The position numbers were made by a program, and so were the translations under genes. The notes beneath the pieces were generated by a model that saw only the letters and a program-made list of their open reading frames with translations, made no database searches and had not been told where the DNA came from. DNA of 32,996 nt from Pseudomonadota bacterium (GTDB taxonomy: Bacteria > Pseudomonadota > Alphaproteobacteria > SMXQ01): contig JADFJG010000029.1 of NCBI GenBank assembly GCA_022566265.1, positions 1-32,996 of the forward strand. The letters are read 5' to 3'. Positions 3,114 through 32,996 of this stretch are shown piece by piece (the first letter of the stretch is position 1; each line of letters starts with the position of its first letter).

Positions 3114-3162
3114 GACCGCAACCGTTGGAACCTGATGAAAGTAAAGCCAAGAGGGTATTTTA

Positions 3163-4950: not shown

Positions 4951-4961
4951 GCAGCCGATCG

Positions 4962-5579: not shown

Positions 5580-5595
5580 GGAGGACGAGGAGCAC

Positions 5596-6321: not shown

Positions 6322-6331
6322 GGCTTGAAAC

Positions 6332-6909: not shown

Positions 6910-6988
6910 CGGCATCGCTTCGCGCCCGGCGACGCTTAGCTTACCTTTTCAGCATCTACGGATAGTGCTCCAGGACTAATGGCTTGGC

Positions 6989-7795
6989 TCAGCGCTCCAC
7001 GACCTTGCGGTACAGATGCCAGGTCGCATGTCCGAGCACCGGCATGACGACGGCGAGGCCGAAGAGAAAGGGCAAGGCGCCGATCACCAGGGCGCCGGCG
7101 ACGATGAAACCCCACATCGCCATCATCACCGGGTTGGCGATAACCGACCTTACCGATGTATGAATCGCCGTCATGGCGCTGATGTCCCGTTCTATTAGCA
7201 TCGGAAAGGACACCACGCTGATGGCCAACACCAAGACGGCGAAGAGGAAGCCGACGCCGCAGCCGACGATTATGAGCCCCCAGCCGGCGGGGGTGGTGAA
7301 AATCTGGCGCGCGAACTCCTCGATCGACGCCGGCGCCGCGGCGCCGAAAAACAGCTCGTAAATTCCCAGCGCCGAGCCCAACCAGGAGAAGTAGAGCGCC
7401 ATCATCACGATGCTGAGCGTCACGATGGCGCCAATGGAGGGGGATCGGAGAACGTCGAAGGCGTGTTTCCAGGCGATATCGAGACCGAGTTCGCGGCGGC
7501 GGCTCAACTCGTACAAGCCGATCGCCGCCAACGGGCCGAGCAGGGCGAATCCGGCGAGGATTGGAAAGATCAGCGGCAGTATGTCGTAGCCGGCCGTAAG
7601 CCTGATCAAGATGAGACCGACGATGGGATACAAGAAGACAAGGAGAAGAATGTGGCTTGGCTTGGCCTTGAAGTCGTCGAGCCCCTTGACCAAAACTTCC
7701 CTCAGGTCCGCCGGGCCGATCTTGCGGATCATCGGTCGATCGGGGCTCGCGCCAGTGTCGGCGACCGCCTTTTCGTCCGCCATTTCATCCGCCAT
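6989..7795 (-). CDS. DUF2189-family integral membrane protein
   Basis: A 268-residue protein with about six hydrophobic helices. Its N-terminal signature, a charged region followed by DLREVLVKGLDDFKAKPSHIL and then LAGFALLGPLAAIGLYELSRR, is typical of the DUF2189 family, membrane proteins often found near cytochrome oxidase genes but with no established biochemical role. The ATG at 7795 has an AGGAGG ribosome site 8 nt upstream. An in-frame ATG four codons further in is a less favoured alternative. It is convergent with the coxMNOP-like operon and divergent from coxB, so it separates the two oxidase operons. A role in oxidase biogenesis is only suggested by location. Confidence 0.8.
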   Translation of the reverse strand: MADEMADEKAVADTGASPDRPMIRKIGPADLREVLVKGLDDFKAKPSHILLLVFLYPIVGLILIRLTAGYDILPLIFPILAGFALLGPLAAIGLYELSRRRELGLDIAWKHAFDVLRSPSIGAIVTLSIVMMALYFSWLGSALGIYELFFGAAAPASIEEFARQIFTTPAGWGLIIVGCGVGFLFAVLVLAISVVSFPMLIERDISAMTAIHTSVRSVIANPVMMAMWGFIVAGALVIGALPFLFGLAVVMPVLGHATWHLYRKVVER

Positions 7796-8099
7796 GGTCG
7801 TGCCTCCTGAACCGCTTGTCGCCGCGGGCGCGACGCCAAAGGTGACACAGATCGCCCATTCCGGCCGCTGGTCACGTCAAGCTCGGACCCGCAGTCTCGA
7901 TGATTATACGCCGTCGGTTGTGCTTTGTCGCCTCGCCCGTGAAACCGTTATCATCCCTTTTGTGCCCGCGGCGCCCGCTAGTGGGGGGTTCTTTGGGTTG
8001 AGGGGCCGGCGGCATCGGGATGAGGCTTGCGCGATATCGACGACCCCTATATTTAGACCAGGGAACAGGCCCTCTGCCGATGGCAAAAGGAATCGAAGC
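7796..8099. other. Divergent intergenic region upstream of coxB
   Basis: These 304 bases lie between the DUF2189 gene (minus) and coxB (plus). A frame open across it on the plus strand starts inside the DUF2189 gene and is only an upstream extension of coxB without its own ribosome site. The recognisable element is the promoter-like block at 8019-8052. AAGGA about 8 nt before the ATG at 8100 fixes the coxB start. Confidence 0.6.
8019..8052 (+). promoter_or_regulatory. Promoter-like element upstream of coxB, twin of 1909-1943
   Basis: GATGAGGCTTGCGCGAT (8019-8035) is followed after 8 nt by CCCCTATAT (8044-8052). The 17-nt block and 9-nt box are identical to those before coxM, while flanking sequence is not. 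As a promoter, CTTGCG and TATATT are spaced 16 nt, placing the transcript start about 40 nt before coxB. Confidence 0.6.
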
Positions 8100-9035
8100 A
8101 TGATTTTCAGGACGGTACCCGCCGTCGTCGCGGTCCTGTTTATCCTAGGCGCCGGCGGGGCGGTATCGGCGGGTGCGCCTGAGCCATGGCAGTTGGGCTT
8201 TCAGCCCCCGGCCTCGCCGGTGATGACGGGCATCGACGATTTCCACAATTTTCTGCTCTGGATCATCATCCTCACCGCGCTGTTCGTAACCGGCCTTATG
8301 CTTTTCGTGATAATCCGGTTCCGGGCCAAGCGCAATCCGGTTCCCAAGAGAACCACCCACAACACGGCGATCGAGGTCATCTGGACCCTGGTCCCGATCA
8401 TGATACTGGCTGTTATCGCCGTTCCCTCCTTCAGGCTTCTCTATTTCATGGACCGCATCGAGGTGCCCGAGATGACGCTGAAGGCTATCGGCCATCAATG
8501 GTACTGGACTTACGAATATCCCGACCATGGCAATTTCACCTTCGACAGCACGATGATTCCGGACGAGGATATCAAGCCCGGCCAGATGCGCCTGTTGGAG
8601 GTGGACAACCGCGTGGTGCTGCCGGTCGACACCAACATCCGCATCCTCATGACCTCGACCGACGTGATTCACGCCTGGGCGGTGCCGGCCTTCGGCATCA
8701 AGACCGACACCATTCCCGGCAGGCTGAACGAAAGCTGGGTGCGGATCGATCGCGAAGGGGTCTATTACGGCCAGTGTTCGGAACTATGCGGAATCTATCA
8801 CGGCTTCATGCCCATCGCCGTCGAGGCGGTGTCCAAGGAGGCCTTCGGAAAATGGGTCGAGACGGCGAAGAAGAAGTTCGCCCGCGCCGATGGCGGCGCA
8901 CCGGCGGCGCGCGTCGCCCGCGCCGGCGGGCCTTCGCCACGCCGACCCGCTACGCCAGCGAAGCGTGGCGAGAGCGGCTCTCGCCTCGGCGAAGCCTCCG
9001 GCGGAGCCAGGGCCGGCCGCGCAGGCGGGCGGTAG
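8100..9035 (+). CDS. coxB: Cytochrome c oxidase subunit II
   Basis: Subunit II of the standard aa3 oxidase, 311 residues. It has a signal peptide (about 1-24, ending AVSAGA), two membrane helices (about 50-72 and 92-113), then the CuA cupredoxin domain. Ligands are H191 and C226-x-E228-x-C230-x3-H234-x2-M237, and the aromatic docking segment is GHQWYWTYEYPD at 131-142. The start is the ATG at 8100 with AAGGA upstream; a longer frame reaches back to 7611 but overlaps the DUF2189 gene. The last 36 residues (276-311, Arg/Gly/Ala/Pro-rich) are encoded by a dispersed palindromic repeat (8926-9030), so the ancestral protein probably ended near residue 275. coxA follows by 20 nt. Confidence 0.95.
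   Translation: MIFRTVPAVVAVLFILGAGGAVSAGAPEPWQLGFQPPASPVMTGIDDFHNFLLWIIILTALFVTGLMLFVIIRFRAKRNPVPKRTTHNTAIEVIWTLVPIMILAVIAVPSFRLLYFMDRIEVPEMTLKAIGHQWYWTYEYPDHGNFTFDSTMIPDEDIKPGQMRLLEVDNRVVLPVDTNIRILMTSTDVIHAWAVPAFGIKTDTIPGRLNESWVRIDREGVYYGQCSELCGIYHGFMPIAVEAVSKEAFGKWVETAKKKFARADGGAPAARVARAGGPSPRRPATPAKRGESGSRLGEASGGARAGRAGGR
8926..9030 (+). repeat. Palindromic repeat, long copy, inside the coxB 3' end
   Basis: The 20-bp left end (8926-8945, beginning GCGGGCCTTCGCC) and 17-bp right end CGGCCGCGCAGGCGGGC (9014-9030) are identical to the ends of a 45-bp copy at 10723-10767. The longer interior contains a hairpin with arms GGCGAGAG and CTCTCGCC around the loop CGG, and a further inverted pair TCGCCACGC / GCGTGGCGA. 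The copy is read through in frame as the CoxB tail, with the coxB stop three bases after its end. It has no transposase and resembles REP or rickettsial-type palindromic elements. Confidence 0.8.
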
Positions 9036-9052
9036 GCGGAGGAAGCGGATAG

Positions 9053-10702
<1,650 letters not shown>

Positions 10703-10722
10703 ATGACGGGCCCGGCCGGGGG

Positions 10723-10767
10723 GCGGGCCTTCGCCACGCCGAAGCGGCTTCGGCCGCGCAGGCGGGC
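10723..10767 (+). repeat. Palindromic repeat, short copy, between coxA and ctaB
   Basis: This 45-bp element has the same left 20 bp and right 17 bp as the repeat at 8926-9030, with only 8 bp between them. It folds into a hairpin with arms GCCGAAG and CTTCGGC and the loop CGG, and the outer bases GCCT/AGGC can also pair. The loop CGG is the same as in the long copy. Confidence 0.8.
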
Positions 10768-10787
10768 CATATCAGAGGAGGAGTTGC

Positions 10788-11753
10788 GTGTCCGATACCA
10801 CACTCAGGGTCGGGAGCCGTGGGCATCCAAGCACGTTCGAGGACCTTTCCGGCGCCGGTGATTACTTCGCGCTGTTGAAACCGAGGGTCATGTCCCTGGT
10901 CGTGTTCACCGGCTTCACCGGCTTGTTCCTGGCGCCGGGCGACCTTCATCCGGTCCTGGCGGCGGTGGCGCTGTTGTGCATCGCCGTCGGCGCCGGCGCC
11001 GCCGGGGCGATCAACATGTGGTACGACCGCGACATCGACGCCGTCATGAAGCGGACCCGCAACCGGCCCTTGCCGGCGGGCCGGATCGATCCCGGCGCGG
11101 CCTTGGGATTCGGCGTCACCCTTGGCATCGGCGCGGTGGTGATCATGGGGCTCGCGGTCAACCTCGTGGCGGCGGCCTTGCTGGCGCTGACCATCGGCTT
11201 TTACGTCTTCGTCTACACCATGTGGCTCAAGCGGCGCACGCCCCAAAACATCGTCATCGGCGGCGCCGCCGGCGCCTTCCCGCCGATGATCGGCTGGGCG
11301 GCGATGAGCGGCGAGGTGAGCCTCGCCCCGGTGTTGTTGTTCGCCATCATCTTCATGTGGACACCGCCCCATTTCTGGTCCTTGGCGCTTTATAGCCGCA
11401 ATGATTACGAAAAAGCCGGGGTGCCGATGCTGCCGGTGGTGGCGGGGACGCGCAAAACCAAGAAACAGATACTGCTTTATGCCATCGGCTTGGCGCCACT
11501 CGTCATGGCCCCTTACGCGCTGGGCATGTTCGGGGCGCTTTACGGCGTTACCGCGGCGGCGCTCGGCGCGCTGTTCGTGCTGGGCGCGGTGTGTGTGTGG
11601 TTCGATGGCACCGACGCATCGGCCAAGCGGATGTTCGCCTTCTCGATCCTCTATCTCTTTCTACTGTTCACCGTGATGATCGCCGACCGGATGATCGTGG
11701 GCGGCCCGGCGCCGGCCAGCGCCGCGATGTGCCCGTTGGGGATCTGTGTCTGA
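10788..11753 (+). CDS. ctaB: Protoheme IX farnesyltransferase (heme O synthase)
   Basis: UbiA-family prenyltransferase that converts heme B to heme O, the precursor of heme A for aa3 oxidases. It has 321 residues and about nine helices. The prenyl-diphosphate/Mg motif N76-x3-D80-x3-D84 lies in [21 protein letters not shown], and the second conserved region is [17 protein letters not shown]. The start is GTG at 10788 with a strong GAGGAG site. It is in the standard position between coxA and the small coxF-like gene. Heme A synthase (ctaA) is not in this window, so it must be elsewhere if heme A is made. Confidence 0.95.
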
Positions 11754-11754
11754 G

Positions 11755-11916
11755 ATGGCCCGGGACCGTCACATCTCTGGGCGGCACATTCCCGAGCCGC
11801 CCAGGCCCGAGCGGCACAAACGGCGGCGCTCCAGGAACCTGGCGCTGGCGGCGGTCCTGCTGGGACTGGTGGTGCTGTTTTACGCCGTCACCCTGGTGAA
11901 GTTCGGCGGGAGTTGA
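11755..11916 (+). CDS. Small CoxF-like membrane protein
   Basis: A 53-residue ORF starting with ATG one base after the ctaB stop and ending just before ctaG. The N-terminal 28 residues are very basic (ERHKRRRSRN), followed by one helix LALAAVLLGLVVLFYAVTLV. Small proteins of this architecture between ctaB and ctaG are standard in alphaproteobacterial cox operons (CoxF-type, assigned to oxidase assembly). Position, size and helix sequence support this. It is easily missed by gene finders with a 60-codon cutoff. Confidence 0.8.
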   Translation: MARDRHISGRHIPEPPRPERHKRRRSRNLALAAVLLGLVVLFYAVTLVKFGGS

Positions 11917-11918
11917 GG

Positions 11919-12491
11919 ATGGGACCGCATCGGCGCCGGCGAAATACCTTCGTGTCCGTGGGCCTTATCGCGGTGGTCGTCGGCATGGCCGGCCTGAGCT
12001 TCGCCGCCGTGCCGCTCTACCGCCTGTTCTGCCAGGTCACGGGCTTCGGCGGCACCACGCAATCGGCCCTGGTGGCGCCCGGCGCGGTGGGCCGGCGCGT
12101 CATCACCGTTCAGTTCAATGCCGATGTTTCCCCGGCGCTGCCGTGGCGTTTCCAGCCCGTCCGGCGGCAGGTGAAGTTGCGGGTGGGAGAGCAAAGCCTT
12201 GCCTATTACCGGGCGGAAAACCTTTCGGATTCGCCCCTTACCGGGGTGACGACGTTCAACGTCACGCCCTACAAGGCGGGTATTTACTTCAAAAAGATCG
12301 AATGTTTCTGCTTTACCGAGCAAAGCCTGGCCCCGGGCGAGAGCGTCGAGATGCCGGTCACGTTCTTCATCGATCCCGAGATCGTCAATGACCGCAACCT
12401 CGACGATGTCACCATCATCACCCTTTCCTACACCTTTTTCCGCGCCAAGGACGCCGGCGCAAAGGGAGAAGTTGACAATGACGGACATTGA
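11919..12491 (+). CDS. ctaG: Cytochrome c oxidase assembly protein CtaG (Cox11)
   Basis: Copper chaperone that delivers Cu to the CuB site of subunit I. It has 190 residues: a short basic cytoplasmic N-terminus, one membrane helix (about 11-31), then a periplasmic Ig-like domain. Copper ligands are visible as C38 after the helix (YRLFCQVTGFGGT) and the CFCF motif (C129, C131). The ATG at 11919 lies two bases after the coxF-like stop; an in-frame TTG two codons upstream is a less likely start. The 3' end overlaps the coxC start by 14 nt, indicating coupled translation. Confidence 0.95.
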   Translation: MGPHRRRRNTFVSVGLIAVVVGMAGLSFAAVPLYRLFCQVTGFGGTTQSALVAPGAVGRRVITVQFNADVSPALPWRFQPVRRQVKLRVGEQSLAYYRAENLSDSPLTGVTTFNVTPYKAGIYFKKIECFCFTEQSLAPGESVEMPVTFFIDPEIVNDRNLDDVTIITLSYTFFRAKDAGAKGEVDNDGH

Positions 12492-13284
12492 CGCCGGCGG
12501 GCACCGACAGAAACATCCCTACCACCTCGTCGAGCCCAGCCCGTGGCCCGTGGTCTGCGCCGCGTCGGCCTTTGTCCTCGCCCTCGGGTTGCTCTTGTTC
12601 ATGCACGACGTTACCTCCTGGGTGTTGTATATCGGCGCCGCCATGTTGCCGTTGACCATGTTCATGTGGTGGCGCGACGTCGTGCGCGAGGCGACCCATG
12701 AGGGCCATCACACGCCGACGGTGCGGATCGGCATGCGCTACGGCATGGCGCTGTTCATCGCCTCGGAAGTGATGTTCTTCGTGACTTTCTTCTGGGCCTA
12801 CTTCGGCGCCGCCCTGTTCCCCGCCGAGGCCACGGGAGGGGTATGGCCGCCCAAGGGGATCGAGACCTTCGATGCCTGGGACCTGCCGTTCCTCAACACC
12901 CTGATCCTGCTGAGTTCCGGCGTGACCGTCACCTGGGCCCATCACGCCCTGCTCGAGAACGACCGGCGGGGCCTCATTGTCGGCCTGGCGGTGACGATCG
13001 GGCTCGGCATAACCTTCACCGGCGTCCAGGCCTTCGAGTACGTCAACGCGCCGTTCGCCTTCAAGGGCGGCATCTATCCCACCACTTTCTTCATGGCCAC
13101 CGGCTTCCACGGCTTCCATGTCATCATCGGCACGATCTTCCTGATCGTCTGCCTGTACCGGGCCTGCAAGGGCCATTTCAAGCCCGACCATCATGTCGGC
13201 TTCGAGGCCTGCGCCTGGTACTGGCACTTCGTCGACGTGGTATGGCTGTTCCTGTTCACCTGGATTTACTGGTGGGGATCCTAG
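12478..13284 (+). CDS. coxC: Cytochrome c oxidase subunit III
   Basis: A 268-residue, seven-helix subunit III of the aa3 oxidase. Hallmarks are FIASEVMFFVTFFWAYF with the conserved Glu, GVTVTWAHHALL, GFHGFHVIIGTIFL and the C-terminal WYWHFVDVVWLFLF. The ATG overlapping the end of ctaG is chosen because AAGGGAGAA lies just upstream; a longer frame to 12388 would run through the ctaG coding sequence. It is the last gene of the standard oxidase operon. In many relatives the next genes are a DUF983 and/or SURF1 gene and thrC; here an M32 carboxypeptidase follows after 49 nt. Confidence 0.96.
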   Translation: MTDIDAGGHRQKHPYHLVEPSPWPVVCAASAFVLALGLLLFMHDVTSWVLYIGAAMLPLTMFMWWRDVVREATHEGHHTPTVRIGMRYGMALFIASEVMFFVTFFWAYFGAALFPAEATGGVWPPKGIETFDAWDLPFLNTLILLSSGVTVTWAHHALLENDRRGLIVGLAVTIGLGITFTGVQAFEYVNAPFAFKGGIYPTTFFMATGFHGFHVIIGTIFLIVCLYRACKGHFKPDHHVGFEACAWYWHFVDVVWLFLFTWIYWWGS

Positions 13285-20535: not shown

Positions 20536-21192
20536 ATGATCGCTGGTAAATGCATGGTTTGGGCGCTGGCCGGAGTGGTTTGGCTGGCGTTCGCCGGCGC
20601 CGGCCTTGCCCAGACGGCGACGCCGCTGACCCTGAAATTGGGTAAGGAGTTGTTTAACGAGAACTGCGCCGTCTGCCACCAGGCCGACGCCATCGGCAAG
20701 CCGGGCGTGGCGCCGTCGCTGACCAATCCGGAGTTGCTCGCCATCGCCTCGGACAAGTTCTTCATGGCCAACATCCGCGATGGGCGCGTCGACACCGGCA
20801 TGCCGCCCTTCGCCCATCTCGGGCGGAAGAACGTCCGCGCCATCGTCGCTTACCTGCGCTCCCACGCCAGGGAACCGAGCCGGGCCGCCCAAGTGGCTTC
20901 CCAGCCCGACGCCCACGGCGATCCCCGCCTCGGCAAGCAGTGGTACGACTTCATCTGTTCCACCTGCCATGGCGTCAACGGGGACGGCTATGAGGCCGGC
21001 GGCACCGGCACGGCCATCGGCCTGGCGGGGTTCCTGGATAAGGTCTCCGACGGCTTCATCCGCGAGACCATCAAGAAGGGCCGCACCAATACCCGCATGC
21101 TGGCGTTCCAGGGGCCGGCCGGGTTGGCCGACCTTTCCGATCGGGAGATCGATGACATCATCGTTTATCTGCGCAACCTGGTTAAGAAATAG
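20536..21192 (+). CDS. Periplasmic diheme cytochrome c
   Basis: A 218-residue c4-like cytochrome made of two class-I cytochrome c domains. The signal peptide ends near GLAQ (residue 26). Heme-binding motifs are CAVCH (44-48) and CSTCH (141-145); likely axial methionines are M89 in TGMPPF and the Met in NTRMLAF. GGAGG lies 6 nt before the ATG. It sits between the membrane cytochrome and the molybdoenzyme, where a Nap operon would use NapB, but it is not NapB-like in sequence. It is the probable electron carrier to or from the molybdoenzyme. Confidence 0.9.
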   Translation: MIAGKCMVWALAGVVWLAFAGAGLAQTATPLTLKLGKELFNENCAVCHQADAIGKPGVAPSLTNPELLAIASDKFFMANIRDGRVDTGMPPFAHLGRKNVRAIVAYLRSHAREPSRAAQVASQPDAHGDPRLGKQWYDFICSTCHGVNGDGYEAGGTGTAIGLAGFLDKVSDGFIRETIKKGRTNTRMLAFQGPAGLADLSDREIDDIIVYLRNLVKK

Positions 21193-21207
21193 CTGGAGGG
21201 TTGAGTC

Positions 21208-23913
21208 ATGAAACGCATCAAGACAGTCTTGTCACGCCGGGAGATGCTGAAGACCAGCGCCTTCATCACCGCCTCCGCCGGCGCCGCCGGGCTCATGGTC
21301 GGCGCCAATCCGGAGTTGGAGGTGGCATCCGCGAAGGCCGCGGAAGCTGGGGATGAGCGCACCACCGCCCTGTCCCAGTGCCCCTATTGCGGCGTCGGCT
21401 GTGGCACCATCATCCAGGTGGAGAACGGCAAGATCGTCTCCATGCGGCCCGACAAGGACCATCCGACCAATTACGGCCTGCAATGCATCAAGGGCCTGAC
21501 CGCCGCCGAGCCGATGTATGTCGACCGCATGGAAGGCGATTCCTACGTCCGCAAGGACGTCTGGGCGGAGTGGAACAAGCCCGGCCATGGCGATGTCGAA
21601 TTCATCAGCAAGACCAAGGGCTCGTTCGACGAGGAACATTTCGTCCGCGTGCCCTACGAGAAGGCCTCCGACCTGGTCGCCCGCAAGATCGCCCACCTGG
21701 CCAAGAAATACGGCGGCAACTCCATCGGTCTTTACGGTTCCGGCCAGCTCACCATGGAGGGGCAGTACATCGAGAACCTCTTCATGAAGGGGATTCTCGG
21801 CTCCAACACCATCGAGGCCAATGCCCGCATGTGCATGACCTCGGCGGTCACCGGTTATTTCGCCACCTTGGGTTCGGACACGCCGCCGCTCGCCTATGAG
21901 GACATCGAGATCTGCGACATGATCATGCATTTCGGGCACAACGCCCGCGAATCGCATCCGATCATCTTCTGGCGCGCCGCCGACTACAAAAGGAAAACGA
22001 ATATTCCGACGGTGGTCGTCGACCCGCGCCGCACCGGCACGGTGATGGGGTATGAGGACATCAACCCCAAGAACTCGATCCATGTCCCCATCCTCAACGG
22101 CGATATCAGCTTCCTGAACGCCATCGCCCATGTGCTGCTCAAGGACCATGACGACGTGATCGACTGGGATTTCGTCAAGAATCACACCACGGGCTGGAAG
22201 GAATATGTCGATGGCGTGCTCAAGGATTATAGCCCGGAGCAGGTGCAGGACCGCATGGGCGGGCCCAATCACGACGTCTCGCCGGCGCTGATCCGCAAGA
22301 TCGCCGGCGTGTTCGCCGACGCCACCCGCAAGCGGCTGGCGCGCGCCAAGGGCACGCAGACCGGCGGCTATGGCGGCGTCATCATCATGTGGGGCATCGG
22401 CTTCAATCAGCACATACACGGCCAGCACAACGTCATCGCCATCATCAACCTTTTGACCCTGACCGGCAATCTGGCCAAGCCCGGCTGCGGCCCGTTCTCG
22501 ATGACCGGCCAGCCCAACGCCATGGGCGAGCGCTTCACCGGCGGTCTCACCGGGCGTCTGCCCTTCAACATGCCGCTGAAGGATGCGGCGCACCGGCGGA
22601 AGATGGCCAAGTTCTGGCGGGTGCCGGAGCAGAACCTGATCGACGCCATGAACTCCAAGAACCCCGGCTTTGCCGTCGGCATGATGGAGCGGGCGCTCAA
22701 GGGTGAGGTAAAGGCGTTCTTCTTCGTCTACGCCACCCATATCGACTTGCCGGACCAGTACAATCTGGTGCGTCCGGCGATCGCCAAGACCTTCAACGTG
22801 GTGCAGGAGATTTACCGCCACGCGCCCAACAACCTCTATGCCGACGTGATCTTCCCGGCGGCGACCTGGGGCGAGGTCGAGGGCATCTATATCAGTTCGG
22901 AACGGCGCCTCAACATTTGCCAAAAGGCGGCCGAGCCGCCGCCGGGATGCCGTCCCGACTTGGACATGGTCCTCGACAAGGCCAAGGAGATCGGCACGCT
23001 TCTCGGGCTCGACATGAAGAAGGTCCTGCCCTATGAGCGCAAGGCGGACGGCTTTTACGATCCGCAGGAAATATTCCGCGACATCATCCGGGCGTCGGAC
23101 GGCACCGACACCGATCTCACCGGCATCCTGGAAGTCGAGAAGCTGGACAAGACGGAGCCTTACGAACAGCTGGCGGAGCTGCGCGGTATCCAGTGGCCGG
23201 CGCCGAGTTACGAGATCGCCAAGAACGGCGGCACCAAGCGGCGCTTCATGCTGCAGGAGGGCGATTGGAAGAACCGGCCCTACGGCTATTTCCGCACCAA
23301 GGACGGCAAGGTGCATATGAAACTGGTCCACCAGGACTATTCCGAGCGGGAAAAATGGACCAAGGAGCTGATGAGATTCGGCGTCGAGAAGGACTTTTAC
23401 ACCATCGACCACATGGACCTCATCAAAATGGGGCGTGACAAGGGCCTGACGCCCGATATGCCGGATGAAGATCATCGCCACAAACGCTGGCAGGATGTCC
23501 CCAAGGACAAGTTCCCTTACTGGTTCGCGCTTGGCGTCGTCTATGAACATTTCCATACCGCCAAGTCCATGCGCAGCCCGACGACGCGCCGGCTGGTGCC
23601 CGAGATGTATGTCGAGATGCATACCGAGGACGCCAAGGATCTCGGCATCAAGGACGGCGACAAGGTGCGGGTGGTGACGAGGCGTGGATCGCTCGAGGCG
23701 CGCGCCCAGGTCGGCACCAATTCCCTGGTCAAGCCGGCGCGCAACGGCGTGCCGCGCGGCTTCATGTTCGGGCCGTGGAACCTCTCGGTCGCCGACAGCG
23801 CCGACCCGAAGAAGAACAAATGGCTGGCCAACGGTGTGACCAGCCGCGTCTGGGATCCCGTCTCCGGACAGGTCGACTTCAAGAAGAGCGCCTGCCGGAT
23901 CGAGAAGATCTAG
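21208..23913 (+). CDS. NapA-like periplasmic molybdopterin oxidoreductase, substrate unknown
   Basis: DMSO-reductase superfamily catalytic subunit, 901 residues. It has a Tat signal (SRREMLK, residues 9-15) and a hydrophobic stretch to about residue 30. The [4Fe-4S] motif is C58-x2-C61-x3-C65-x27-C93, with the conserved lysine (K95) between cluster and cofactor. The molybdenum ligand is most likely C209 in EANARMCMTSAV, matching ARHCMASAV of NapA. The cofactor-binding region GFNQHIHG...LTGNLAKPGCGPFSMTGQPNAMG is also NapA-like, and a molydop-binding C-terminal domain is present (about 780-890). It is longer than typical NapA (about 830), with extra sequence around 640-760. No NapB or NapD accompanies it. 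Nitrate reductase activity is possible but not established. A GGAGGG ribosome site precedes it. Confidence 0.88.
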   Translation: MKRIKTVLSRREMLKTSAFITASAGAAGLMVGANPELEVASAKAAEAGDERTTALSQCPYCGVGCGTIIQVENGKIVSMRPDKDHPTNYGLQCIKGLTAAEPMYVDRMEGDSYVRKDVWAEWNKPGHGDVEFISKTKGSFDEEHFVRVPYEKASDLVARKIAHLAKKYGGNSIGLYGSGQLTMEGQYIENLFMKGILGSNTIEANARMCMTSAVTGYFATLGSDTPPLAYEDIEICDMIMHFGHNARESHPIIFWRAADYKRKTNIPTVVVDPRRTGTVMGYEDINPKNSIHVPILNGDISFLNAIAHVLLKDHDDVIDWDFVKNHTTGWKEYVDGVLKDYSPEQVQDRMGGPNHDVSPALIRKIAGVFADATRKRLARAKGTQTGGYGGVIIMWGIGFNQHIHGQHNVIAIINLLTLTGNLAKPGCGPFSMTGQPNAMGERFTGGLTGRLPFNMPLKDAAHRRKMAKFWRVPEQNLIDAMNSKNPGFAVGMMERALKGEVKAFFFVYATHIDLPDQYNLVRPAIAKTFNVVQEIYRHAPNNLYADVIFPAATWGEVEGIYISSERRLNICQKAAEPPPGCRPDLDMVLDKAKEIGTLLGLDMKKVLPYERKADGFYDPQEIFRDIIRASDGTDTDLTGILEVEKLDKTEPYEQLAELRGIQWPAPSYEIAKNGGTKRRFMLQEGDWKNRPYGYFRTKDGKVHMKLVHQDYSEREKWTKELMRFGVEKDFYTIDHMDLIKMGRDKGLTPDMPDEDHRHKRWQDVPKDKFPYWFALGVVYEHFHTAKSMRSPTTRRLVPEMYVEMHTEDAKDLGIKDGDKVRVVTRRGSLEARAQVGTNSLVKPARNGVPRGFMFGPWNLSVADSADPKKNKWLANGVTSRVWDPVSGQVDFKKSACRIEKI

Positions 23914-23956
23914 GCCAGGTCTTTCCCCGATCGCGGCCGGGATAGGGAGTAGCCCC

Positions 23957-24529
23957 GTGGAACGCAGGACCGTTCTCAAGGCACTGATCGCCGGCGCCGC
24001 CGCGGCGCTGGCGCCCAACACCGTCCGCGCGGCGCGGTTCAGTTCCACCTTGCGCTATCTGCGGCCGCCGGGCGCCTTGGCGGAAGAGGATTTCTTGGCC
24101 CGCTGCATCAATTGCGGCCAGTGCGGCGAGGTCTGCCCCAACCGCTGCATCAAATATTTCGGCCTGGAGAACGGCCTCGGCTCCCTCGATACGCCCTACA
24201 TCATCCCGCGGGAAAAGGGCTGCATCCTGTGCATGAAGTGCGGCGACGTGTGCCCGACCGGCGCCATCCAACCCGTCGCGCGCGAGGCCGGCGCCATCCT
24301 CGATGGCGTCAAGATGGGGCACGCCCGGGTCGATGAAAGCCTGTGCCTGTCCTTCCAGGGCAAGACCTGCGGGGTGTGCTACCGGGCCTGCCCGTTGCCC
24401 GATATAGCCATCACCGTCGGCCGCCTGGAACAGCCCCATGTCACCGACAAATGCGTCGGCTGCGGGCTTTGCGAGCGCTCCTGCATCCAGATGCCCCAGG
24501 CGATCCGCGTCATCCCCGACCGTGGTTAG
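23957..24529 (+). CDS. napG: NapG-like periplasmic ferredoxin with four [4Fe-4S] clusters
   Basis: A 190-residue iron-sulfur protein with a Tat-like N-terminus (ERRTVLKALIAGAAAAL). Four cysteine groups can each ligate a [4Fe-4S] cluster: C50-INCGQCGEVCP, C89-ILCMKCGDVCP, C130...CGVCYRACP and C166-VGCGLCERSC. NapG normally works with NapH to oxidise quinol and pass electrons to the periplasmic reductase. The start is GTG at 23957 with AGGGAG upstream. The stop TAG abuts the napH ATG. Symbol given by family and pairing with NapH. Confidence 0.88.
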   Translation: MERRTVLKALIAGAAAALAPNTVRAARFSSTLRYLRPPGALAEEDFLARCINCGQCGEVCPNRCIKYFGLENGLGSLDTPYIIPREKGCILCMKCGDVCPTGAIQPVAREAGAILDGVKMGHARVDESLCLSFQGKTCGVCYRACPLPDIAITVGRLEQPHVTDKCVGCGLCERSCIQMPQAIRVIPDRG

Positions 24530-25579
24530 ATGTCAGCGGGCGGGAAAATGACCGGGCAACGCCACAAGCCGTTCTTCCTCTGGCGCCACCTGAACAAGCT
24601 GCGTTGGGTGAGCTTGAGCATCGTCTTCGCGATGCTCGTGGCGCTGCCCTTCCTGCACCTCTACCAGACCTATGTCGCCGCCCATGCCTATGATCTGCTG
24701 TCGCCGCCGGAGGCGCGGATCTACGATGTCATGGAGGCGTTGACCCAGCCCTTCGTCAGCGATCCGGCGGAGGATCTGGACGCGGTCAAGGGCAACACCT
24801 GGTCGGGAACCTTCTGGGGCCTGAAGCTTTCCGATCCCCTGGCGGCGCTCGGCCAGATGGCGGCGGGACGGACGCTTTACTGGCCGTTCCTCGTCACCGC
24901 GCTCATTCCCGTCGTCTTGACCGCCCTGTTCGGACGCTTCTTCTGCGGCTGGATCTGTCCGGCGACCTTCATTTACGAGCTCAACGGCAATTTCGCCTCC
25001 TGGCTGCGCTGGGCCGGCTTCAAGCCCGGCAACCGCCACTTCGACAAGCGCATCAAATACGGGGTGTTGGCGCTGGGCGTGATCGGCTCGGCGATGACCG
25101 GTTCGGTCGTGGTCGCCGCGGTCTATCCGCCCGCCATCATCGGCCGCGAAATCTACTACGTGATCGCGCTCGGCGGTTTCGGCGCCGGCATGGTGTTCTT
25201 CCTGGCGACCTTGGGGTTCGACCTCTTGGTGGCGCGGCGGGGCTTCTGCCGCTACCTCTGTCCGGGAGGGGCGCTTTACGCCCTGCTCGGCCGCTACCGC
25301 GTGGTGCGTATCCGCCGCATCGTCGAGAACTGCAACGACTGCGCCAAATGCAACGCCATCTGCGAATTCGGTCTCGATCCCCTGGGCGACGGTTTCGGGC
25401 AGGAATGCAACAATTGCTCGGCCTGTATCGCGGTCTGCCCGACCGACGCCCTGACCTTCACCATCAGGCCCACCGACATTCCGGCGCAGGGGCCGGGGCA
25501 TCTGGGCTGGCGGTACCGCCGCGAGGCCGAGGCCCGGGTCCAGGGCGGGCAGCCCGCAAGGGAAGATAAGGCGGCCTGA
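24530..25579 (+). CDS. napH: NapH-like quinol-oxidising membrane iron-sulfur protein
   Basis: A 349-residue membrane protein with about four helices. It carries the two CX3CP motifs that define NapH/NosR-type proteins: C139-GWICP-type (CGWICP) and C240-RYLCP. The cytoplasmic C-terminal domain has two [4Fe-4S] sites: C268-C271-C274-C278 and C293-C296-C299-C303P. The insert after helix one (about 50-110) is typical of the family's periplasmic loop. It starts immediately after the napG stop and overlaps the next gene by one base (TGATG), so NapG, NapH and the next protein are translated together. Predicted role: quinol dehydrogenase partner of NapG. Confidence 0.9.
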   Translation: MSAGGKMTGQRHKPFFLWRHLNKLRWVSLSIVFAMLVALPFLHLYQTYVAAHAYDLLSPPEARIYDVMEALTQPFVSDPAEDLDAVKGNTWSGTFWGLKLSDPLAALGQMAAGRTLYWPFLVTALIPVVLTALFGRFFCGWICPATFIYELNGNFASWLRWAGFKPGNRHFDKRIKYGVLALGVIGSAMTGSVVVAAVYPPAIIGREIYYVIALGGFGAGMVFFLATLGFDLLVARRGFCRYLCPGGALYALLGRYRVVRIRRIVENCNDCAKCNAICEFGLDPLGDGFGQECNNCSACIAVCPTDALTFTIRPTDIPAQGPGHLGWRYRREAEARVQGGQPAREDKAA

Positions 25580-26175
25580 TGGAACGCTGGGTCCCCATCG
25601 TGTCCTTGGTGGTCATGGCGTGGTTGACGATGACGGGCGTGGCGGGCGCGCACCATGTGTTGGGCCGTCCCGCCTACAGTTTGAACGAGGACTCCAACAC
25701 CCCGCCCGCCATGCAGGCGGAAGTGCGGACAGGCGACTATTTCGTGACCTACATGGCCTTCCCGGCCTTCCCGCGGCCGGGACATCCCGGCAGGATCAGC
25801 CTCTATGTCAGGCGCATCGACGACGGAACGCCCTTCCAGGGCAAGGTCGCCTTCAAGGTGCGCGGATCATCCTGGCTTTCATGGCTGGGAATCGGCAATG
25901 AGTCCCACGGGCTGGGCCTTCGGCCGCCGGACGACAACGTCTTCCGCCAGGGTTTCCTCTTCGAGAAAGCGGGCGATTACATCATCACCGCCCAGTTCGA
26001 GGCGGATGGCGAGCCCTATGTCATCGACTTCCCGCTGCGTATCGGTGAACCGCCGCCCATCGGCCCCATCGGCATCGCCGTCGGTGCATTGGCGATCGTG
26101 CTCTTGACCGTCAACATCGTCCAGCGCCGCCGCTCGATGACCGGCAAGATCCGCGGCGCCCGTGAAGGCAAGTAA
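25579..26175 (+). CDS. Membrane-anchored periplasmic protein, possible FixH/YtkA-like fold
   Basis: A 198-residue protein with a signal peptide (cleavage near GVAGA, residue 23), a periplasmic domain of about 120 residues beginning HHVLGRPAYSLNEDSNTPP, and one C-terminal helix (about 163-182) with a basic cytoplasmic tail. Beta-strand-like alternation and phrases such as RISLYVRRIDDGTPFQGKVAF suggest an Ig/YtkA-type domain, as in FixH or copper-site accessory proteins, but I cannot assign the family with certainty. The N-terminal His pair right after the signal cleavage could bind metal. It is co-translated with napH and upstream of another ferredoxin, so it belongs to the molybdoenzyme system, perhaps as assembly factor or partner. 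Confidence 0.7.
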   Translation: MERWVPIVSLVVMAWLTMTGVAGAHHVLGRPAYSLNEDSNTPPAMQAEVRTGDYFVTYMAFPAFPRPGHPGRISLYVRRIDDGTPFQGKVAFKVRGSSWLSWLGIGNESHGLGLRPPDDNVFRQGFLFEKAGDYIITAQFEADGEPYVIDFPLRIGEPPPIGPIGIAVGALAIVLLTVNIVQRRRSMTGKIRGAREGK

Positions 26176-26186
26176 GAGGCGCCCCC

Positions 26187-26210
26187 GGGGGGTATGATGG
26201 GGGGTATGAT
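26187..26210 (+). repeat. Tandem 12-bp repeat duplicating ribosome site and start codon
   Basis: GGGGGGTATGAT occurs twice without a gap (26187-26198, 26199-26210). Each copy supplies a G-rich ribosome site and an ATG pair in the same frame as the ferredoxin gene. The repeat therefore gives four in-frame ATG codons (26194, 26197, 26206, 26209). Confidence 0.85.
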
Positions 26211-26808
26211 GAAACGCCGGGAATTCTTCAGGCTGGGGGCGCAAAAAACCGCCCGCGCCGCCCTGCGATTGGCCGCCGACAGGGCCGCCAGGCGGGCGAC
26301 ACGCCGGATCAGGCCCCCCTTCGCCCTGGAAGAGCCGGATTTCCTGCTGGCCTGCACCCGATGCGACAAATGTATCGAGGCCTGCGATTACGACGTGCTG
26401 TTCAAGCTGCCGGCCCATCACGGTCTCCAGGCGGGCGGCACGCCGGTAATGGACTTGCTCAATCGCGGCTGCCACATGTGCCAGGACTGGCCCTGCGTCA
26501 AGGCCTGTGAACCCGGCGCCCTTAAGCTCCCGGCGCTTGACGGAGACGCGCCGGGGCCACCGGCCAAGTTGGCGCGCGCCGGGATAGATGTGAATGTTTG
26601 CCTGCCTTACCTCGGCCCCGAGTGCGGCGCCTGCAGGGATTCGTGTCCCATCCCGGGGGCGCTCGAATGGCAAGGCGGGATCAAGCCCGTCATCGACGAG
26701 GAACGCTGCACCGGATGCGGCCTCTGCCGGGAGGCCTGCATCGTCGACCCCAAGGCGATCGAGATCGGCGCCCTCGTTCCCGGAAAGCCGACGGCTCCCT
26801 ACTTTTAG
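26194..26808 (+). CDS. Second four-cluster ferredoxin (NapF/NapG-like)
   Basis: A 204-residue protein from the first ATG, or 199 from the ATG at 26209, with a Tat-like KRREFFRLG motif directly after that last Met, which favours the downstream start. Cysteine groups are CTRCDKCIEAC, CHMCQDWPCVKAC, the spaced group ECGACRDSCPIP, and CTGCGLCREAC, giving four potential [4Fe-4S] clusters. The sequence after the first group reads CDYDV, not CP, so that cluster is slightly non-standard. It resembles NapF/MauM-type ferredoxins and differs clearly from the NapG at 23957. It is the last gene of the operon, 18 nt after the previous stop, and is convergent with algH. Confidence 0.85.
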   Translation: MMGGMMKRREFFRLGAQKTARAALRLAADRAARRATRRIRPPFALEEPDFLLACTRCDKCIEACDYDVLFKLPAHHGLQAGGTPVMDLLNRGCHMCQDWPCVKACEPGALKLPALDGDAPGPPAKLARAGIDVNVCLPYLGPECGACRDSCPIPGALEWQGGIKPVIDEERCTGCGLCREACIVDPKAIEIGALVPGKPTAPYF

Positions 26809-29802: not shown

Positions 29803-29949
29803 AACATACGCAGCGTCGAAGCACCCGGTATGGCCCTTCGGTTTGAGGGGTGAAATCGCACCCGCTTGCGCCTATGATAACAGATTAGGTACTAACCGAT
29901 GAGGCCGGGGGCACCCCGGCGCCAACGCAAATCGCGGGGAGAGCCGACA

Positions 29950-30432
29950 ATGACGATCAAGGTTGGAGACAAGATACCATCGGTCACGCTGCAACATATG
30001 ACCGCCGACGGCATAGCCGATATCTCGACCGATGAAATTTTCGGCGGCAAGCGGGTCGCCCTTTTCGCCCTGCCGGGCGCCTTCACCCCCACCTGTTCGG
30101 CCAAACACCTGCCGGGATTCGTCGCCAACGCCGGTGCGATCAAGGCCAAGGGGGTGGACACCATCGCCTGCGTCTCGGTCAACGACGCCTTCGTCATGAA
30201 CGCCTGGGGCGAGAACCAGGGGGCCGGCGAGGAGGTCCTCATGCTCGCCGACGGCTCGGCGAAGCTGGCCACGGCGCTCGGGGTCGAGCTTGACCTCGCT
30301 GATCGGGGCATGGGCGTGCGCTCGCGTCGCTACTCGATGATCGTCGACGACGGCGTGGTGACGACGTTCAACCTCGAAGCGTCCGGCGCCTATGAGGTCA
30401 GCGACGCCGAAACCCTGCTCGGGAAACTCTGA
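29950..30432 (+). CDS. Peroxiredoxin, Prx5/AhpE-like (thiol peroxidase)
   Basis: A 160-residue peroxiredoxin of the Prx5 group that reduces hydrogen peroxide and organic peroxides, probably in the cytosol. The peroxidatic cysteine is C49 in LPGAFTPTCSAKHLPGF, the typical Prx5 sequence, and the conserved Arg is in GVRSRRYSMIVDDGVV. There is no second cysteine in the usual position for an atypical two-Cys mechanism other than C67-region SVNDAF lacking Cys, so it may work as a one-Cys enzyme or use a glutaredoxin. The start is ATG 29950 with GGGGAGA upstream; an extension to 29899 is unlikely. It lies 147 bp after the DsbD-like gene. Confidence 0.9.
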   Translation: MTIKVGDKIPSVTLQHMTADGIADISTDEIFGGKRVALFALPGAFTPTCSAKHLPGFVANAGAIKAKGVDTIACVSVNDAFVMNAWGENQGAGEEVLMLADGSAKLATALGVELDLADRGMGVRSRRYSMIVDDGVVTTFNLEASGAYEVSDAETLLGKL

Positions 30433-30757
30433 GGCGGGCTACCCAGGGGGGGGGTCCTCGGGCCGTCCCGGAGCGGGCTTCACGATCGGCGAAATCCATG
30501 GCCTTGCCGGCGGCGGAAATCACGCGGCCTGGTTGAAGATTTCGGTTTTGCGTTCACCACGGGAGCGGACCTTGCAGCCGGTTGCGATACGACCAAGGGG
30601 CGACACCCCCTGGACCCCCCTCAATGGTAAAATGGCTAAACTAGGAAAAACCAGGGAAAACCGGGCGATTCCTTGATGCGGAACCCGACGCTCAAAGACC
30701 GAGCCCCGCCGATGGCGGGGCTCGTTCCTTCTGGGTAAGTTCAGGTCTACCGCGCCG
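30433..30757. other. Intergenic region with a 9-G run and a strong hairpin
   Basis: In these 325 bases I see no convincing gene. The open frame at 30392-30676 is an out-of-frame overlap of the peroxiredoxin end with no ribosome site. There is a G9 run (30446-30454), and the terminator-like hairpin at 30700-30724. Confidence 0.5.
30700..30724. terminator. Strong GC hairpin between convergent genes
   Basis: Arms CGAGCCCCGCC (30700-30710) and GGCGGGGCTCG (30714-30724) form a perfect 11-bp stem with a 3-nt loop. On the plus strand it is followed by TTCCTTCT; on the minus strand by TCTTTG. It probably terminates both the peroxiredoxin transcript and the small minus-strand gene at 30758-31018, though the T-runs are poor. 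Confidence 0.65.
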
Positions 30758-31018
30758 TCACATCGGCTTGTATGGCGCAACCCCAAGAATTTTTAAAGCC
30801 GCGTGCAGAGCTTTGATCGACTCCCCGTGTTTTTTGCTCTTATGGAGAGCCGCGCCCTTGTCGCGCAACGCCTTGACCTCCGTCATCTGCATTTGGTTCA
30901 ATCCCTTTGCCTTTGGCAGGGATTGGTCGATGATCTTGACATCCTTCGGACAGTGTTTGGCCAAGGCCGGCGACGTCATGGCCATGACCACTGCAACCGC
31001 TACGAGAATAGTTTTCAT
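30758..31018 (-). CDS. Small secreted helical protein, 86 aa
   Basis: Signal peptide of 20 residues (MKTILVAVAVVMAMTSPALA) followed by a 66-residue mature part: KHCPKDVKIIDQSL..., predicted helical and rich in Lys and Ala, with a single Cys after the cleavage site. AGGGAGG lies 8 nt before the ATG. The CP-K-D/H-x-x-x-ID pattern after the signal is similar to the 120-aa protein at 31879 (CPKHFAAAQAAID), so they may be distant relatives. Function unknown; the family is common as small periplasmic proteins in Rhodospirillales-like genomes, from general familiarity only. Confidence 0.75.
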   Translation of the reverse strand: MKTILVAVAVVMAMTSPALAKHCPKDVKIIDQSLPKAKGLNQMQMTEVKALRDKGAALHKSKKHGESIKALHAALKILGVAPYKPM

Positions 31019-31303
31019 GGATATTCCTCCCTGTAAAGTGCCCGCCGATCACGAGCATGGAAGTGATTCTGCGAACTATTCGCAACTGAGTCAATGAAAA
31101 CTCGACATTCCCCAGATGACATCCGATTTCGTGGAAATTGCAGCACTGTCCCACCGCCACCGGAACTGTATCCTTTATGCAGCCATCCGATTGCATGATT
31201 TTGGTAATCGGCCCGCACTTGGAAGGCCATTTTCCCATATTTTCCGCCATCCAGACACACCTCTCGTGTCGATTTCTTCTCGCTGTCGATTCCTTCGGCC
31301 TAC
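31019..31303. other. Intergenic region with no supported gene
   Basis: Upstream of the 86-aa minus-strand gene, this stretch is less GC-rich than average. Frames open on both strands (31015-31260 minus, 31116-31361 plus) lack ribosome sites and look like translated non-coding DNA. The last 60 bases adjoining it on the plus strand appear to be a gene remnant (next entry). Confidence 0.5.
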
Positions 31304-31361
31304 GCCGGAGCAGGATGACGCCAACGCCGCCGGCATGGTGCATGCCAAATACATGAAGTAG
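31304..31361 (+). pseudogene. 3' remnant of a small paralogous gene
   Basis: The frame ending at TAG 31359-31361 reads EQDDANAAGMVHAKYMK. It is followed at once by the same GTAACACCGGGC...TTCCGGGA sequence and hairpin that follow the intact 120-aa gene at 31879-32241. Both ends share an AACGCC/ACGGCC-GCCGGCAT-like stretch before the stop. It is therefore interpreted as the degenerate 3' end of a third copy. The upstream part is not recognisable. The interpretation rests mainly on the shared downstream element. Confidence 0.45.
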
Positions 31362-31363
31362 GC

Positions 31364-31421
31364 GTAACACCGGGCATTCCGGGAAGGGATCGCCGCGCCC
31401 TGGATGGTTCTTGGGCGCGGC
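31364..31421 (+). terminator. Terminator-like repeat, copy 1
   Basis: Starts GTAACACCGGGCATTCCGGGA and ends with a hairpin of arms GCCGCGCCC (31392-31400) and GGGCGCGGC (31413-31421). The same block, with few differences, follows the intact small gene at 32244-32305. No T-run follows this copy. Confidence 0.6.
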
Positions 31422-31439
31422 TGAACCGCCGCTGCCGCG

Positions 31440-31678
31440 TTGGTCGTTATCCTCATCGCCTCCGTAGCCTTCGCCGCACCGTGCCCTGGGCATGCCGATC
31501 CGGCACAGAACGCCATCGACAAGGCCACGGCGGCGATGAAAGGAATGTCGGACAAGGGCAAGATGGGCCCGGTCCACACGCTGATCGACGATGCCAAGAT
31601 GCTGCTCGCGTCAGCAAAGCACAACTGCGCCAAGCCCGCGGCTACGCCGAAGCCGCCGTGGGTCTCTCGAAGAAATAG
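31440..31678 (+). pseudogene. Small secreted protein gene with frameshift and lost start
   Basis: The translation APCPGHADPAQNAIDKATAAMKG...GPVHTLIDDAKMLLASAKHNCAKP is clearly paralogous to the 120-aa protein at 31879 (ALVHALLDDAKMLLAGAKHNHAKP). After AKHNCAKP the frame drifts; switching by one base at the CCC near 31632-31634 restores RGYAEAAVGLSKK and a stop at 31676-31678. The 5' end is also abnormal: an in-frame TGA at 31422 leaves only a TTG (31440) and a signal peptide with no basic n-region, and a terminator-like hairpin lies just upstream with no ribosome site. One missing C plus a truncated start make a pseudogene most likely. Confidence 0.6.
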
Positions 31679-31878
31679 ACTGAACGTCTAGCAGACCCCC
31701 CCCCCCTTAAGACGCGGTCCGGCGCCGCCCCCTTTGCTGGTGGCGGCGCCGGAATCCGCGATCTGGACTCCGGCGCGCCCTATAGGGCACAATCAGGGGT
31801 CTTTCGGGGCCGGCAAAGGAGAACACGAGGACCGCCATGCCGCCATGGTGTCAATCCGTTGAATAAGGGAGGTAGGTT
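31679..31878. other. Spacer between small paralogues, with an 11-C run
   Basis: Contains C11 at 31696-31706 followed by TTAAGACG, and otherwise GC-rich spacer. No gene supported. The ribosome site GGGAGG of the next gene lies at its end. A promoter for the 120-aa gene must be here but is not obvious. Confidence 0.4.
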
Positions 31879-32241
31879 ATGAGACTCGGAACTCTAATGG
31901 CGTTCATCGCCGTCCTTGCCTTGGGTCAATTGCCATCGACAGCCAATGCCTTCGCATGTCCCAAACACTTCGCCGCGGCCCAGGCCGCGATCGACAAGGT
32001 GACAAAGGACATGAAGGGCGAAATGTCGAAGAAGATGGCGGCGGCCGGCATGGCCGCCGACATGGCACTGGTGCATGCTCTACTCGACGACGCCAAGATG
32101 TTGTTGGCGGGGGCGAAGCACAATCACGCCAAGCCCCAGGGCAAATACGACCATGCCCGCGCCATCGCCAAGGCCGACGCGGCCAAGGGCTCCGCCACGG
32201 CCGCCGACATCTTCCATTGGAAGCTCATGGGCAAAATGTAG
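31879..32241 (+). CDS. Small secreted His/Lys/Ala-rich protein, 120 aa
   Basis: Signal peptide of about 24 residues (ending STANA), then a helical mature protein FACPKHFAAAQAAIDKVTKDMKGEMSK... with LVHALLDDAKMLLAGAKHNHAKPQGKYDHARAIAKADAAKG and the ending IFHWKLMGKM. It has one Cys and several His (KHF, KHNH, YDHA, FHW) that could bind metal, but no motif I can name. A good GGGAGG ribosome site precedes the ATG. It is the intact member of a local paralogue set and is followed by a terminator-like hairpin and then a multicopper oxidase gene. Function unknown. Confidence 0.8.
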   Translation: MRLGTLMAFIAVLALGQLPSTANAFACPKHFAAAQAAIDKVTKDMKGEMSKKMAAAGMAADMALVHALLDDAKMLLAGAKHNHAKPQGKYDHARAIAKADAAKGSATAADIFHWKLMGKM

Positions 32242-32243
32242 AA

Positions 32244-32310
32244 GTAACACCGGGCGTTCCGGGAGAAGGCGTCGCCGCGCCCCGATGGGGTCTCGGGCGC
32301 GGCGATCCTC
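32244..32310 (+). terminator. Terminator, copy 2 of the repeat, after the 120-aa gene
   Basis: GTAACACCGGGCGTTCCGGGA leads into a hairpin with arms TCGCCGCGCCC (32272-32282) and GGGCGCGGCGA (32295-32305), an 11-bp stem, followed by TCCTCTCCTTTTT. A convincing intrinsic terminator, nearly identical to the block at 31364-31421. Confidence 0.75.
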
Positions 32311-32361: not shown

Positions 32362-32996
32362 ATGCGAAGATTCTTTTCAGCCACCCTGGGGCTGGGGTTA
32401 CTTGCCGCCCTGTTTCCGATCCCCGGCCATGGGGCCCAGCCCTTCCAGGATGCGCCGATCCCGGGGACGTCCCGATCCGCCGTCACCTTGGGCCGCGACC
32501 TCGACGGCGACGGCGACCCTGATGAAATTACGATCCGCTTGGAGGTGATCGAGGTCACCGAGGAGGTTTATCCCGGCGAGTTCGTGAAATTCTGGGTGTT
32601 TGCCCCCGAGGGCCGGGGCATGACCCCGGTTGCCCGGGTGCCGAGTCCCACCATCCGCGTCGAGGAAGGCGACCGGGTGCGCATCATCCTTCTCAACACG
32701 CACTACTTTCCGCACACGATTCACCCCCACGGAACCATCCACCCCAATGCCATGGACGGGGTGCCCGACATCACCCAGGCGGCGGTCAAGCCCGGTGAGT
32801 CCTTTACCTACGAGTTCACTGCGAAAAACCCCGGTACGTTCTTCTATCACTGCCACGTCCAGCCCGATGTCCACGTCCTCATGGGCCTGGTGGGGATGCT
32901 GATCATCGAGCCCAACCGGCCAAAGAACATATTCACTCATCTCGTGATTGGCGCGGGGCGGATGCCGGACCTCGCCAAGGCCACCGTGGAGGAGGG
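32362..32996 (+). CDS. Multicopper oxidase, N-terminal part (runs off window)
   Basis: At least 211 residues of a secreted multicopper oxidase. A signal peptide (about 1-24, ending GHGA) is followed by a short stretch DLDGDGDPDE (46-55), which resembles a calcium-binding loop. A cupredoxin domain follows with HTIHPHG (H118, H121, H123) and FYHCHVQPDVHVLMGLVG (H163, C164, H165, H171, M174). These are the type 2/3 copper and type 1 copper ligands. A type 1 site in the first domain is more like two-domain laccases than three-domain CotA types, but the rest of the protein is needed. GGGAGG lies 8 nt before the ATG at 32362. It is the next gene after the small secreted protein, with a terminator between them. 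Confidence 0.9.
   Translation, partial: MRRFFSATLGLGLLAALFPIPGHGAQPFQDAPIPGTSRSAVTLGRDLDGDGDPDEITIRLEVIEVTEEVYPGEFVKFWVFAPEGRGMTPVARVPSPTIRVEEGDRVRIILLNTHYFPHTIHPHGTIHPNAMDGVPDITQAAVKPGESFTYEFTAKNPGTFFYHCHVQPDVHVLMGLVGMLIIEPNRPKNIFTHLVIGAGRMPDLAKATVEE

Follow-up and report, generated by a model that had tools for sequence, protein, structure and literature searches.

Probable remains of a tandem array of a small secreted protein family beside a multicopper oxidase gene

Gene content of the locus

The window analysed here is one whole contig (C34) of 32,996 bases from a 3.55 Mb assembly of 173 contigs. Because it is a complete contig, the multicopper oxidase gene at its end is truncated, and the region further downstream is out of view. 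The features of the locus are collected in Table 1. Three copies of one gene lie within 1 kb, as a sequence-only reading of this DNA had proposed: an intact gene for a 120-residue secreted protein (P120), whose open frame was confirmed, a broken copy (copy B) and the 3′ remnant of a third (copy A). The peroxiredoxin gene and a gene of a second family, encoding the 86-residue secreted protein P86, complete the neighbourhood. Positions 30568-31303 show G+C values of 0.561 and 0.505, compared with 0.632 for the contig, and a terminator-like hairpin at 30700-30724 falls inside this low-G+C stretch.

The contig that carries the copper cluster also has two groups of cytochrome c oxidase genes at 2238-13284, with two subunit I genes (the first slightly under the family cut-off, the second over it) and an assembly protein gene at 11913-12491. 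Positions 20536-26808 encode a molybdopterin enzyme that is NapA-like but scores far under the NapA cut-off (339 versus 904 bits), together with NapG-, NapH- and NapF-like ferredoxins and a cytochrome c-like protein, all under their cut-offs. By similarity, this region is perhaps a divergent Nap-like system.

Table 1. Coordinates and strand of the features discussed.
Feature	Position	Strand	Remarks
Peroxiredoxin (Redoxin) gene	29899-30432	+	Synteny with L003
Segment of about 1.2 kb without counterpart at the same-genus syntenic locus	30568-31781		
P86 gene, 86-residue secreted protein, second family	30758-31018	-	Invariant Cys23, His59, His64
Copy A, what is left of a third copy: 13 C-terminal residues and the stop codon	31320-31361	+	
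Hairpin block after the remnant	31364-31421	+	Outer 3′ arm missing where copy B starts
Copy B, pseudogene	31425-31678	+	Homologous to P120 residues 9-87; start lost; frame change; stop at 31676-31678
P120, intact gene, 120-residue secreted protein	31879-32241	+	Open frame; signal peptide; invariant Cys27, His66, His81, His83, His92
Same hairpin block after P120, before the oxidase gene	32244-32303	+	Also in ortholog L003
Multicopper oxidase gene	32362-32996	+	Cut by contig end

The P120 family and its gene neighbours

A scan of 84,980 species genomes, which detects close relatives only, returned ten loci. The family set used here comprises the window, L003-L012 and L031-L034, giving 15 loci and 16 intact proteins. 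With the genome of the window included in each count, members occur in 5 of 385 class-level genomes, in 2 of 398 phylum-level genomes and in 3 of 41 near genomes; none of the nine near genomes that share the taxonomic family but not the genus has one. Searches of viral contigs and of plasmids confirmed no relative in either. P120 matches no Pfam family at E up to 1, and no Pfam model is shared over the 16 members: 11 families are hit, each by one or two members, with a best single-member E of 9.2e-5 (a release-factor family) and a two-member E of 0.13, which we take as chance. In NCBIfam, for which P120 and one relative were searched, P120 hits no family and the relative one at E 0.034, under the cut-off. 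No paper describing the family was found in the open-licence literature searched, and the family itself seems to be unnamed.

P120 and its 15 relatives share a signal-like N-terminus, a CP pair at the mature N-terminus and the motifs ALVHxxxDDA and HNHxKPxGxxDHxR. The five invariant P120 residues in Table 1 are found in all 16 intact members, and His30 is found in 14, the L003 ortholog being one that lacks it. The earlier description of P120 as His-rich was loosely worded, as the protein has six histidines among 120 residues, of which four are invariant across its relatives. AlphaFold2 models P120 as a three-helix bundle (mean pLDDT 86.1, pTM 0.72), with mature helices at residues 27-45, 59-84 and 91-118 and a short one at 48-55. 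From the order of the helices, Cys27 and His30 are predicted to share one pole of the bundle with His81, His83 and His92. Among solved structures, the best sequence match to P120 has an E of 0.21 and the best Foldseek match an E of 0.47, and VIA-align Z values reach 12.3, under the level at which that tool is informative for helical bundles.

Comparison of relatives shows the family gene directly upstream of a multicopper oxidase gene, on the same strand, at 9 of the 15 loci (the window, L003, L004, L005 from Primorskyibacter aestuariivivens, L007 and L031-L034); no oxidase was seen at the other six (L006 and L008-L012). A cupredoxin-CusF homolog comes next after the oxidase in seven of the eight oxidase loci besides the window, with the oxidase, cupredoxin and CusF domains all identified by Pfam; in L007 only its first part precedes the contig end, and the L033 contig ends inside the oxidase. 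The cupredoxin-CusF protein is encoded by a separate gene in L003 and is fused in L004, where a single 660-residue frame (5417-7399) contains the oxidase, cupredoxin and CusF domains. In the family tree, L008-L012 group together with support; in L011 a cation-efflux gene adjoins the family gene, and in L008 an HMA metal-binding protein is encoded about 4.7 kb from it. The family is thus sparse, short and without a shared Pfam model, yet it stands repeatedly directly before a multicopper oxidase.

In G236, the family gene is duplicated as a 520-bp unit at 94.8% identity (L031 716-1235 and 3548-4067), and both copies are intact. They flank the oxidase and cupredoxin-CusF pair, and a P86 gene lies some 1.1 kb beyond. 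This recent and separate duplication indicates that the P120 family duplicates independently.

Two broken copies upstream of P120

Copy B was recovered by tblastn with P120 as the query (assembly searched at E up to 10; E 2.4e-11, 55% identity over residues 9-87) and by the family profile (assembly searched at E up to 0.001; 5.1e-18), and neither search reports a place in the genome other than P120 and copy B. An in-frame TGA (31422-31424) immediately precedes the first homologous codon of copy B, which has therefore lost its own methionine, its ribosome site and some eight codons; the first remaining start codon in its frame is a TTG at 31440. By homology the frame changes near 31637, and the unshifted frame would stop at 31689-31691. 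The last peptide of copy B, RGYAEAAVGLSKK, can be placed in two ways. Frameshift-tolerant alignment prefers to put it after a small frameshift; alternatively, in the scan of family C-terminal columns, it is the true family C-terminus after a larger internal deletion. The frameshifted copy with a truncated start that had been described earlier therefore does have a lost start and a changed frame, and the change may be a larger internal deletion instead of a point indel. Copy B is identical to P120 at 40 of 71 residues and retains 15 of the 21 covered family-invariant columns (30 invariant columns in all), with His83 replaced by cysteine and the stretch bearing His92 lost. A simple sequencing error, which the earlier reading had named as a way in which it could be wrong, is disfavoured, since such an error could hardly by itself account for the absence of the start and of the 3′ motif together with the truncation of the block.

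The remnant of copy A was evaluated with a scan of the 889 stop-ended frames of at least 14 codons in the window, 48 of which match the family best in its C-terminal columns. Among these 48, P120 scores highest (39.3); the part of copy B past its frame change follows with 26.9 and the remnant with 26.0, and the next frame reaches 20.5. By this comparison the remnant, although just 13 residues long, is real, and its homology begins at about 31320 rather than at 31304 as first proposed.

The hairpin block that follows both the remnant and P120 bears out the earlier observation of a shared element. Comparing the two blocks gives a score of 67 (against a null maximum of 29 for 844 segments taken from the window), with 79-89% identity in ungapped pieces, and in both cases the block begins two bases past the stop codon. 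Among 59 loci compared, the block is confined to loci of this genus: in the 200 bases past the family gene, L003 scores 104 and the 14 other gene copies 12-22 against the same null maximum. A 19-base core, allowing up to three mismatches, has two exact matches in the genome, namely the remnant and P120 blocks, and five more with two to three mismatches; its reversed control has eight matches in the same scan. With no other exact core match in the whole assembly, we reject the possibility, raised with the original claim, that the block is a common terminator. Between 30430 and 32450, a consensus terminator scan gave three terminator-like sites (2.3 expected), neither block among them, and the three Rfam matches are all far under gathering scores. 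The P120 hairpin region folds modestly better than shuffles, 16 of 200 of which fold as well, compared with 22 of 200 for L003 and 1 of 200 for the remnant. Finally, the point at which the remnant block ends and copy B begins may be read as a deletion junction.

Age and history of the copies

The same-genus genome G001 provides a reference for dating these events. Its DsbD, peroxiredoxin, P120 and oxidase genes are in matching order (contig L035, which is L003 reversed), and this locus lacks 30568-31781, with about 70 unrelated bases in its place. Several observations point to an old duplication followed by later decay. Firstly, P120 and copy B differ at 9 of 17 fourfold sites, compared with 2 of 52 for P120 and its L003 ortholog. 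Second, P120 and L003 have in common a four-residue insertion that is absent from copy B and the other 14 rows of the alignment. Third, the two blocks have the identity described above. Finally, the differences between copy B and P120 are in excess at third positions (37 of 71, compared with 46 of 142 at first and second positions; one-sided p=0.004), so that copy B looks like a diverged gene that was once under selection. The family tree does not fix the position of copy B. Together, these results support an expansion of the gene family followed by decay beside a multicopper oxidase; they do not support active duplication, as had also been claimed, given that the same-genus ortholog is much closer to P120 than copy B is, and that copy B lacks the P120/L003 insertion and has no settled place in the tree.

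We consider that copies A and B are probably the leftovers of an old tandem array. In this explanation, three or more tandem genes, all from a single family of small periplasmic proteins, would have immediately preceded the multicopper oxidase gene in the ancestor. A single deletion would have fused the 3′ end of copy A and its hairpin to codon ~8 of copy B, taking the start of copy B with it. Copy B would afterwards have lost its frame and the conserved C-terminal His motif, an order of events that is our reconstruction, and P120 would be the sole copy to stay intact. The same-genus relative would have lost, or would never have had, the extra segment. There is nothing unusual in a small gene duplicating and decaying in this way.

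As the tree leaves the position of copy B open, we also weighed whether the remnant and copy B are xenologs acquired from another lineage and not local duplicates. Consistent with this origin are the missing P120/L003 insertion in copy B, a remnant C-terminus that by eye resembles L004, L005 and L007 as much as P120, and a G+C of 0.505-0.561 in part of the segment. The remnant, however, bears the genus-specific hairpin block at an equal distance from its stop codon, and copies A and B are in tandem with P120 on the same strand, which makes acquisition from elsewhere rather unlikely.

The ratio dN/dS between P120 and L003 (31879-32241 versus L003 2033-2392) is 1.07, compared with 0.04 for the oxidase, 0.34 for the peroxiredoxin and 0.59 for part of DsbD. 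This fast evolution of P120 could reflect relaxed constraint.

A proposed role in copper handling

The placement of the conserved residues and the linkage to oxidase and CusF genes make a copper-binding partner the likeliest role for P120. The protein would most likely be a periplasmic partner of the oxidase, and the family would most likely consist of secreted copper-binding proteins that work with the oxidase and with its cupredoxin-CusF protein; copper transfer from P120 to the oxidase may follow from this arrangement. CusF is a small beta-barrel. P120 resembles it as a small periplasmic protein proposed to bind copper, and a CusF domain is encoded beside the P120 oxidase in L003, but P120, unlike CusF, is predicted to be all-helical. 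SmbP of Nitrosomonas europaea is a periplasmic, helical, His-rich protein, and P120 can be likened to it, as a small metal-binding protein, by description only. Pfam contains a small metal-binding protein model, which is not among the Pfam matches of the 16 members.

CutF of the cutFOG operon of Rhodobacter capsulatus offers a closer parallel in gene arrangement. It is small and exported by Sec, and its gene immediately precedes that of a multicopper oxidase, with a stem-loop separating the two (PMC8456105, PMC9973294); it acts together with the stem-loop ahead of cutO (PMC9973294). P120 is likewise small and secreted, its gene comes immediately before an oxidase gene of this type with a hairpin predicted in the gap, and by analogy it may work somewhat like CutF. 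CruR of Bordetella pertussis is encoded by a small upstream ORF, is predicted to be exported and is associated with copper genes (PMC9426467). The motifs differ, however: CutF has CXXXC and a proline-rich C-terminus, whereas P120 has one cysteine, four invariant histidines and neither motif; CruR has CXXC and RAPP motifs, which P120 lacks, and its gene lies upstream of a TonB-dependent transporter. In the alignment of 16 members, CXXC and CXXXC are absent, with a single invariant cysteine and no second conserved one, as is a proline-rich or RAPP C-terminus (0 of 16). DUF2946 is not among the 11 Pfam families matched by any member at E up to 1. With both defining motifs and the Pfam match failing, P120 is not a CutF/CruR (DUF2946) member, and the family is a clear candidate copper donor or sensor distinct from CutF.

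These parallels nonetheless raise the alternative that P120 is a copper-responsive upstream regulator of the CutF/CruR kind, whose translation would sense copper and switch the hairpin ahead of the oxidase gene between open and closed, the block then being regulatory and not a terminator. The hairpin predicted between the two genes is conserved between the window and L003, and the absence of the block from the terminator-like sites of the consensus scan agrees with this idea, as do the accounts of the CutF stem-loop (PMC9973294) and of the CruR upstream ORF (PMC9426467). Against it, P120 lacks the motifs and the DUF2946 match of these regulators, the hairpin lies about 45 bases ahead of the likely ribosome site, the block was not found after the 14 other family genes tested outside the genus, and the intergenic regions of L004 and L034 fold no better than shuffles. 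We regard a regulatory role of this kind as improbable. On balance we favour the explanation as a whole, that is, a decayed tandem array with P120 as the copper-binding partner of the oxidase, as likely to be correct. That copies A and B are assembly artefacts of a misjoined metagenome contig is scarcely credible: although the window makes up one entire contig among the 173 of the assembly and the same-genus relative has no such segment, copy B at 55% identity is no misassembled repeat of P120, and the damage lies at several separate places.

P86 and its possible kinship to P120

The P86 family occurs in 23 of 385 genomes of the class and is commoner than the P120 family. Cys23, His59 and His64 are invariant in the 18 rows of its alignment (A3), which uses 18 of 25 matches and leaves out L048, L052, L053, L054, L057, L058 and L059. 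On the assumption that both samples contain identical sets of 385 genomes, P86 is present in four of five P120 genomes (p=5e-5), or in three of four with the own genome excluded (p=6e-4), and the two genes are close together in the window and in G236. By eye, the longest flanking frames of 18 other P86 loci have no copper context in common.

The earlier reading had called P86 relative-like. The gene is indeed on the minus strand, although outside the range given for the cluster, and the evidence for kinship is mixed. Comparison of the P120 and P86 profiles without signal peptides by hhalign gives 54% probability and a score of 27.1 (maximum of 100 column shuffles 16.1), whereas BLASTP finds nothing significant (E 0.29). 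A single-sequence model of P86, of moderate confidence (pLDDT 72), has mature helices at 24-36, 42-60 and 64-78, with Cys23, His59 and His64 at helix ends, in places that appear to match those of P120 when the models are compared without superposition. Also against kinship, most profile matches of P86 are to consensus TPR designs and span about 23 residues (best E 8.6e-6), and weak Pfam TPR matches occur in 2 of 18 members; this similarity would represent a TPR-like helix hairpin without functional meaning. These results are suggestive of P86 as a possible, unproven distant relative of P120. More speculatively, and with considerable doubt on our part, P120 and P86 could represent two branches of one undescribed superfamily, whose secreted three-helix proteins would have Cys-Pro at the N-terminus and a His hairpin and would act as copper donors or buffers; the P120 branch would serve a class of multicopper oxidase that has a cupredoxin-CusF partner, with its gene dosage tuned by repeated duplication and loss. 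A second copy of the 86-residue gene, 70% identical, lies elsewhere in the same genome (L036 5236-5493, contig C173), on a contig that also carries a pyridine-nucleotide oxidoreductase gene and, by eye, a response regulator gene.
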